Assembly (NCBI GenBank): GCA_937888435.1
Contig: CALAQS010000054.1
Coordinates: forward strand, 1-48,717
DNA: 48,717 bases
Source of the DNA: an uncultured Acidobacteriota bacterium
GTDB taxonomy: Bacteria > Acidobacteriota > Thermoanaerobaculia > UBA5066
Reading direction: 5' to 3'
Shown: piece after piece, positions 13,078 through 14,386 of the stretch
Numbering within the stretch: the stretch's first letter is position 1
Layout: every line of letters begins with the position of its first letter
Notes under the pieces: model-generated
Databases searched by the model: none
Told to the model about the DNA's origin: nothing
The model's input: the letters and a program-made list of their open reading frames with translations, nothing else
Position numbers and translations under genes: made by a program

Positions 13078-13686
13078 CTAGTACTTCCTCATGAGCCCGA
13101 CGACGACTCCCTGTACTTTGAGGTCGCCCTCCGCGACCCAGATCGGCGACATGCGCTCGTTCGCGGGCTGGAGCCGGATGCGGCCGTCCGCCTCGCGGTA
13201 GAAGCGCTTGAGCGTGGCCTCGCCGTTCAGGAGGGCGGCCACCATTTCGCCGTTCGAAGCCTTCTCGCGCCGGTTCACGACGACGAAGTCGCCGTCGTGG
13301 ATGCCGTCGTCGATCATCGAGCTGCCGTTCACGCGCAGGACGTAGTTCTGTCCCTTGCGCGTGAGCACGTCGGGGACGGCGACCGTCTCACCCTCGGGCT
13401 CGGGCTCGATGGGCTGCCCGGCAGCGATGCGGCCTGCGAGAGGGAGCTCGACGGCTCCGGCGGGCTTGTTCTCCTCGGCCAGGACGAGAGAGCGCCGCTT
13501 GTTCCAATCGCGCACGAGCACGCCCTTCTCGAGGAGCAGCTTGATGTGCTTCTGAAGCGTGCCGAACGAGGAGTACCCGAACTCCTCGCAGATCTCACGC
13601 TGGGTGGGCGAAAGGCCCCTCTTCTGCCGGTAGGCGCGAATGAAGTCCAGAATTTCTTTTTGCTTCGGAGTGAGAGTCAGCGCCAT
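13078..13686 (-). CDS. lexA: LexA repressor
   Basis: SOS repressor of 202 aa. The N-terminal winged-helix DNA-binding domain (~1-65) includes SPTQREICEEFGYSS. The S24 peptidase-like domain has the Ala89-Gly90 autocleavage bond in GRIAAG, nucleophile Ser123 in GSSM and general base Lys160 in ATLKRF. All catalytic elements are intact, so RecA-stimulated self-cleavage is expected. The upstream region is AT-rich and carries a duplicated copy of the gene's own first nine bases and 5' flank. No textbook Shine-Dalgarno sequence lies next to the ATG. Confidence 0.95.
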   Translation of the reverse strand: MALTLTPKQKEILDFIRAYRQKRGLSPTQREICEEFGYSSFGTLQKHIKLLLEKGVLVRDWNKRRSLVLAEENKPAGAVELPLAGRIAAGQPIEPEPEGETVAVPDVLTRKGQNYVLRVNGSSMIDDGIHDGDFVVVNRREKASNGEMVAALLNGEATLKRFYREADGRIRLQPANERMSPIWVAEGDLKVQGVVVGLMRKY

Positions 13687-13699
13687 AAAAAATAAGGCC
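13678..13699. repeat. Direct repeat, proximal copy (covers the lexA start)
   Basis: A 22-bp sequence identical to 13759-13780. It contains the complement of the lexA start codons (ATG GCG CTG) and the AATAAGGCC flank. A shared CCTAATTTT follows 14 bp later in both copies (13714 and 13795), so the duplicated module is ~45 bp with an 81-bp period. Confidence 0.9.
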
Positions 13700-13721
13700 C
13701 TCTACGAGAAACTCCTAATTT

Positions 13722-13732
13722 TATTCGGAATA
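13722..13732. promoter_or_regulatory. Palindrome upstream of lexA, candidate operator
   Basis: TATTC-G-GAATA is a perfect 5-bp-arm palindrome 36 bp upstream of the lexA ATG. A second palindrome, TTTCT-T-AGAAA, lies at 13801-13811 in the duplicated copy. LexA autoregulation is expected from the family, but that these are LexA sites is inference. Confidence 0.3.
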
Positions 13733-13758
13733 GCTGAAATCTGAATCCCATGGAACGC

Positions 13759-13780
13759 CAGCGCCATAAAAAATAAGGCC
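13759..13780. repeat. Direct repeat, distal copy
   Basis: Identical to 13678-13699 and 81 bp away. It carries an orphan copy of the lexA start codon context with no following open frame. Confidence 0.9.
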
Positions 13781-13942
13781 TTTTATTAAGATTACCTAAT
13801 TTTCTTAGAAAGAATCGAGGATAGATGCTCGATAAAGTCAGGATACAGTTTCAATCAAGCCCATCACGCGCAAGATAGGCGTAAATTGCAGATTCGTCAA
13901 GGAAAAATGGGGAGCGTGGCCGAGCGCTAAACTCTAAGGGCG

Positions 13943-14386
13943 TTGCGCGAAAAGAACCCCGCTAGGTCGCCAAAAACCCTCGGGCGGCGCATCCTGCGCA
14001 CGGCTCTTTCCCTCGCCGTCGCCGCGTTCCTCCTTTTCGCTGGCATCCTCTTCCTCTTCAACAGGCCATTCAGCGACAACCCGGAGGCGCTCCGCGCGTC
14101 GCGCCTGACGACCACGAATCAGCTCTTTCCGATGCAGGTCGCGGTCTTTCCCGAACGGATTGCGCGCTACAAGCCTCGTTTCTTCGGCCACACGGAGGAT
14201 TCGATCTCGACCGACCAGATCGCGTCCGTGAAGATTCAGGCCGGCGTGGTGTTCGCGGACGTCGTCATCGACACGACGGGAGGCTCGCCGCCGATCGTGA
14301 TCCACGGGCTCTGGAAAAAGGACGCCGAGCGCCTGCGCCATCTCATCGGCGCCGCTCAGGAAATCCGCCGAAAACGGGCACCGTGA
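13943..14386 (+). CDS. Small membrane-anchored protein, PH-like domain possible
   Basis: The protein has 147 aa from a TTG at 13943. A basic N-terminus is followed by one hydrophobic segment (~20-39, LSLAVAAFLLFAGILFLF). The rest is a predicted beta-rich domain (~60-130) ending in an amphipathic helix (DAERLRHLIGAAQEI). This arrangement recalls bacterial PH-like domain proteins, but no diagnostic motif is present. No function is assigned. It precedes a lipoprotein gene by 85 bp. AAGGG lies close to the TTG, so the start is uncertain. Confidence 0.6.
   Translation: MREKNPARSPKTLGRRILRTALSLAVAAFLLFAGILFLFNRPFSDNPEALRASRLTTTNQLFPMQVAVFPERIARYKPRFFGHTEDSISTDQIASVKIQAGVVFADVVIDTTGGSPPIVIHGLWKKDAERLRHLIGAAQEIRRKRAP

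Follow-up and report, generated by a model that had tools for sequence, protein, structure and literature searches.

The Direct Repeat at the Start of lexA

What has been duplicated where a sequence that holds the start codon of lexA recurs a short distance upstream, and which protein would act there? The question arises in a 48,717-nt stretch of DNA (the window, i.e., the whole stretch that was analysed), part of a MAG of 3.7 Mb in 366 contigs (G000). LexA commonly represses its own gene, and lexA is usually thought to be controlled mainly by LexA. The original prediction read the repeat either as a duplicated operator or promoter that gives two control sites at lexA, or as a recent slippage event. 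The features concerned are the following.

13078–13686, minus strand: lexA coding sequence, 202 aa; TIGR00498, with PF01726 (LexA DNA-binding domain) and PF00717 (Peptidase_S24)
13678–13730, minus strand: proximal repeat copy, containing sites D and C and the lexA start
13759–13811, minus strand: distal repeat copy, containing sites B and A
13702–13767, minus strand: mini-ORF of 21 codons (MALAFHGIQISAIPNKIRSFS, then a TAG stop), starting at the duplicated ATG, in the lexA frame
13872–13900, minus strand: probable lexA promoter; −35 TTGACG at 13895–13900, spacer of 17, −10 TATCTT at 13872–13877

The lexA product scores 176.8 bits against TIGR00498 (cut-off 110.95), and its gene starts at 13686 on the minus strand, inside the proximal repeat copy. 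The sequence CAGCGCCATAAAAAATAAGGCC at 13678–13699 is identical to CAGCGCCATAAAAAATAAGGCC at 13759–13780 (22 bp, spacing 81), and both copies share CCTAATTTT further on (13714–13722 and 13795–13803); the repeat and this shared stretch were thus correctly described from the start, as was the AT-richness of the region, 62% between 13678 and 13860 compared with 32% for the whole window. In an ungapped comparison of 53 bp, the two copies are 77% identical. No exact direct repeat in the 250-bp region exceeds these 22 bp, and 2000 single-base shuffles gave none longer than 14; no third match to the 22-mer with up to three mismatches was found in the 366 contigs of the own genome. The mini-ORF, a putative ORF only, would be a side product of the duplication. 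The lexA promoters of congeners and of other family members have hexamers (read by eye) similar to those in the window.

Paired Palindromes in the lexA Leader

The recurring unit in the upstream regions of lexA in relatives from families f1 and f3 is a 15-bp palindrome, CCKAAT-N3-ATTMGG, paired exactly 31 bp apart, in which the second palindrome overlaps or nears the lexA start codon. The window has two such pairs, at −123/−92 and −42/−11 relative to the lexA ATG. The scores given here are from a matrix of lrpX sites (see below).

13683–13697, minus strand: site D, CCTTATTTTTTATGG, position −11, overlapping the lexA ATG; score 16.0
13714–13728, minus strand: site C, CCGAATAAAATTAGG, position −42, 31 bp from D; score 18.2, the best in the window
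13764–13778, minus strand: site B, CCTTATTTTTTATGG, position −92, the duplicated start-codon site; score 16.0
13795–13809, minus strand: site A, TCTAAGAAAATTAGG, position −123, 31 bp from B; score 7.1, eighth in the window

As pairs, C and D score 34.2 and A and B 23.1, while the spacing from B to C is 50 bp, which is no multiple of 31. The different palindromes that had been seen after each copy of the 22-mer do exist, but they straddle the edges of these larger 15-mer units. When the spacer was left free between 1 and 30 in a search of 60 genomes, all six AT-rich pairs had a gap of exactly 16; the other two places found (in G014 and G056) are GC-rich, with a different spacing. Operators of the Lrp/AsnC type are characterised by a 15-bp imperfect palindrome and a spacing of two or three helical turns, and both properties are seen here (31 bp). 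Single sites are uninformative and the paired pattern is needed, since a single-site scan with CCKAANNNNNTTMGG of the own genome returned 10 sites, mostly GC-rich, versus six in the reversed control.

Two loci, L005 and L006, carry a second 31-bp pair further upstream of lexA, at about −240 to −170, and L009 and L010 have one at a similar offset; the one in L005 overlaps the start region of a sigma-70-family gene in divergent orientation.

The Extra Pair Is Confined to One of Four Congeneric Genomes

The comparison of upstream regions in relatives bears out a single-copy ancestral state: three congeners, each with one pair, have 102–103 nt between the −10 and the lexA ATG, versus 185 nt in the window, which has two. 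The extra copy is therefore present in one of the four genomes of the genus, and the leader in the window is longer by 82–83 nt, the period of the repeat being 81. The distal pair lies 62 nt from the −10, compared with an ancestral distance of 60–61 nt in the congeners, and the proximal pair holds the ancestral position at the start codon. From the leader lengths and these retained distances, it follows that tandem duplication added about 81 bp to the leader. What was doubled in the lexA leader, as judged from these alignments, is a pre-existing pair of putative operator sites; the single ancestral pair is conserved in the genus and the family.

Over 57 positions, the distal copy matches 47 and the proximal copy 45 in G002, 37 and 34 in G001, and 34 each in G003. 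The duplicated ATG is missing from all three congeners. A simple single duplication with even drift does not account for an identical 22-bp core in copies that have otherwise diverged; the identity of the core possibly results from selection on the sites or from later conversion.

The Same Pair Precedes an Lrp/AsnC-Family Gene

The pair pattern recurs directly before a gene of the Lrp/AsnC family, termed lrpX, in all 12 genomes of family f1 that have the gene, and LrpX is encoded elsewhere in the same genome as the lexA of the window. Its product contains PF13404 (AsnC-type HTH) and PF01037 (Lrp/AsnC ligand-binding, RAM), both over cut-off; of the proteins with a solved structure, E. coli Lrp is the nearest to it in sequence (2gqq, E 1.3e-23). 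We have not named it Lrp itself because it reaches no NCBIfam equivalog cut-off. Orthologs (at least 67% over a 60-residue query) occur in the 12 f1 genomes and in three of family f3. In G009, 25 residues at the end of a contig match at 84%; in G005, G014, G016 and the other members of the class, there are only paralogs, with at most 50%.

As at lexA, the second site overlaps the ATG of lrpX, and the first covers a TATAAA −10 (by eye). The pair scores at the 12 f1 loci range between 37.0 and 42.4, these loci being the training set of the matrix itself. The presence of the same type of operator at its own gene suggests that LrpX is most likely autoregulated. The three f3 lrpX loci have weak pairs (12.6, 15.5 and 5.7), so that the motif appears to be well shared only within f1.

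The matrix was made from 24 lrpX sites only (9 distinct, both strands counted) in the 12 f1 genomes. Applied to the whole window, it ranks 13714, 13683 and 13764 first to third and 13795 eighth. Background percentiles were set aside, as their loci had been picked for holding pairs. The set of lexA upstream regions comprises loci from 30 of the 49 genomes with a match, among 60 genomes. In 12 of the 13 genomes with LrpX, the best 31-bp pair before lexA scores between 17.6 and 36.8, versus at most −0.1 in all 17 genomes without it; the exception is G017, where LrpX is present, yet the best lexA pair reaches only −2.3. The lowest of the 12, in G018 (17.6), is barely above the control maximum of 17.0 over 328,431 positions, the control loci (L044–L120) coming from many phyla and being unscreened for LrpX. 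The best pair is the one proximal to lexA in nine of the 12 genomes; in G008, G012 and G006, a pair further upstream scores higher, the proximal pairs scoring 21.0, 25.2 and 16.4, respectively. When spacings from 8 to 79 were compared, 31 was common to 12 of the 13 genomes and the next best, 62 (2 × 31), to three.

These counts (12/13 with the regulator vs 0/17) come from related genomes. The LexA tree, which includes 23 of the 30 loci, provides two well-supported independent contrasts, which agree with the association in 1.7 of 2 on average, and with only two contrasts the co-occurrence cannot reach significance; shared ancestry could account for much of it.

Other Matches to the Pair in the Genomes

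With up to two mismatches, the 46-bp pair pattern finds nine matches on both strands of G000 versus none in the reversed control, and 108 versus 19 summed over 19 genomes of the family and order, 16 of which have matches; in G005, G009, G013 and G016, it is not above control. Three of the nine matches in G000 are outside lexA and lrpX, in contigs C101 (GC-rich, two readings) and C242. With three mismatches, the counts for pattern and control are 29 vs 23 in G000, 43 vs 23 in G002 and 40 vs 24 in G003, and the recognisable regulon is therefore small, with no large one evident, although some of these weak sites may be real.

One further candidate target is a small gene near recA, where the pair lies just upstream of a TTGATT −35 in G000 and similarly in G012 (by eye), a position that suggests an activator-like role. 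In G002 and G003, two pairs, some of them loose, precede this gene 72 bp apart, so doubled pairs may not be unique to the lexA of the window. A TPR-like identity proposed by eye for the small gene was dropped, as no Pfam match was found in it.

Among the matches rejected as operators, those at G015:C51 and G018:C28 show, by eye, the hairpin and T run of an intrinsic terminator, and the one near G000:C14:2557 resembles a dif site. In this last region, ATTTAACATAATAAATATTATCGGAC is located between a ParB gene (PF02195) and a gene for an LptF/LptG permease (PF03739), at about 1385–1415 of locus L265; it also occurs in L266 and at G003:C14:29914. It reads like what we take to be the consensus of an XerCD dif site, and a dif beside parB would be unusual.

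A Separate Direct Repeat Is the Probable LexA Box

A direct repeat distinct from the 22-bp repeat lies over the −10 of the lexA promoter.

13867–13884, minus strand: probable LexA box, TTACGCC-TATC-TTGCGCG; one mismatch to TTNCGCC-N4-TTNCGCC

With up to two mismatches, TTNCGCC-N4-TTNCGCC occurs upstream of lexA in all 30 regions (no mismatch in five, one in 19 and two in six), whereas among 385 pieces of 300 nt from the same control loci (L044–L120) none matches within one mismatch and 4 match at two. It also occurs, at the same threshold, upstream (352–420 nt) of all 12 imuA-like genes, in seven of them within one mismatch; an earlier, stricter direct-repeat expression had found six of the 12. 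The imuA-like genes were found by RecA-family similarity, and the protein from G000, the sole one checked, matches the ImuA model with E 5.7e-13, which is below cut-off. Upstream of 11 recA genes, the motif is exact in one (G004), has two mismatches in two and at least three in eight, so recA seems mostly not to be marked by it. A direct-repeat scan of 17 genomes gave counts near control among the matches listed; the informative result is the enrichment before lexA and imuA-like genes only. TTNCGCC-N4-TTNCGCC is hence put forward as the probable LexA box, a candidate for the class as a whole.

A further leader element, nearly invariant, was seen upstream of lexA in order-level relatives (L018, L019, L020, L025 and L027, of genomes G014, G017, G016, G015 and G018, respectively): GGCCGA-GGG ... 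CGGCCGCGGTGG-TCCCTCGGCC, folding into nested stems. Six of its 23 predicted pairs are changed on both sides and several are broken in some rows, the covariation term being slightly unfavourable; the only Rfam matches in these five loci are tRNAs.

A Proposed Second Lock on lexA and Its Alternatives

In our estimation, the repeat at lexA is probably an 81-bp doubled two-site operator, most likely bound by the autoregulated LrpX and hindering lexA. From the sequences, we infer LrpX as the binder, repression as the effect and a strengthening by the second copy. As 31 bp is about three turns, the 15-bp palindromes share one helix face, where LrpX dimers would bind and assemble cooperatively to cover the leader and the start codon of lexA, hindering transcription as a roadblock or by wrapping; this mode of repression is a guess, because the −10 is some 60 nt upstream of the lexA sites. 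To LexA autorepression at the direct repeat in the promoter, LrpX would then add a second lock. The species of the window would have an array of four sites (−123, −92, −42 and −11) instead of two, for which stronger or more cooperative control may be expected. More tentatively, and with somewhat less than even confidence, we suggest that, in a family of Thermoanaerobaculia (Acidobacteriota), the gene of the SOS master repressor is controlled in a conserved manner by a near-dedicated, autoregulated Lrp/AsnC-type sensor, by which a small-molecule (amino-acid-like) signal sets the SOS threshold, and that this species has doubled the pair.

The part of the original prediction that speaks of a duplicated operator with two control sites agrees with the local tandem duplication; a reading of the palindromes as LexA sites is not supported, since TTNCGCC-N4-TTNCGCC marks lexA and imuA-like genes and the pairs track the Lrp gene. 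That the palindromes are a clade-specific LexA (SOS) box, the repeat providing two sites of lexA autorepression, is very improbable, although they are located directly before lexA and LexA autorepression is common. A LexA box is expected to be common to SOS genes and conserved with lexA, and the pair is neither: its best score is 0.2 before the 12 imuA-like genes and −7.4 before the 11 recA genes, and it is lacking in 18 of the 30 lexA upstream regions (G017 and the 17 genomes that have LexA but no LrpX). TTNCGCC-N4-TTNCGCC is present at every one of the 30 lexA genes (24 within one mismatch) and the 12 imuA-like genes, and it is an Lrp gene that the pair precedes throughout f1. Hardly credible is an action of the palindromes in RNA, as hairpins or an attenuator, or of the duplicated ATG through a leader peptide that controls lexA translation. 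The palindromes do lie within the transcribed leader, and a 21-codon ORF begins at the duplicated ATG; however, the common half-site combinations CCG..TAGG would be mismatched as RNA stems, the same motif lies over or upstream of the probable promoters of other genes (by eye), the congeners lack the duplicated ATG, and Rfam finds nothing in 13600–14000 with E up to 1. (The latter search also disposed of a degenerate tRNA start suspected at 13905–13970, GGGGAGCGTGGCCGAGCG....)

The suggestion of recent slippage bears on the second copy as such; the ancestral pair is conserved in genus and family. That this copy arose by recent neutral slippage and has no regulatory effect, only the ancestral pair being at work, would suit its restriction to one of the four genomes of the genus and the low score of distal site A. 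We consider it rather unlikely, given that sites B and D are still identical while the flanks have diverged to 77%, that site C resembles the lrpX consensus more closely than does A, the corresponding distal site, and that in G002 and G003 another gene is preceded by two pairs at a distance of 72 bp, of which the weaker are loose matches.

If the doubled operator read by LrpX is real, a conserved second type of operator at lexA would connect the response to DNA damage with the sensing of nutrients, in a phylum that has been little studied. The comparison also yields TTNCGCC-N4-TTNCGCC as a LexA-box candidate for the class.

Comparison with Known Systems

Alphaproteobacterial LexA boxes are direct repeats, GTTC-N7-GTTC. 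The candidate box TTNCGCC-N4-TTNCGCC resembles them in its 11-bp period and its location upstream of lexA and imuA-like genes, but differs in its letters. We found no report on Lrp-type control of lexA or on LexA motifs in Acidobacteria in the literature covered, which included few subscription papers.

E. coli Lrp provides one example of Lrp/AsnC-family operators. Another is Ss-LrpB of Sulfolobus, for which a 15-bp consensus and three dimers bound cooperatively at its own gene are described (PMC4046817). For the family, a usual site spacing of two or three helical turns (PMC2995911) and a 30–31 bp periodicity of sites (PMC8707732) are given. Such operators and the lexA pairs are alike in their 15-bp imperfect palindromes, regular clusters, helical-turn spacing and (here presumptive) autoregulation. 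The present system differs in its motif, CCKAAT-N3-ATTMGG, in its small recognisable regulon and in having lexA as a conserved target.

The nearest precedent is the colicin E8 gene of E. coli, on which AsnC and LexA form a double lock (PMC4482635). There, as proposed here, an Lrp/AsnC protein and LexA at one promoter region restrain an SOS gene. The target of that lock is a plasmid colicin gene, whereas the second regulator predicted here from sequence would act on lexA itself.
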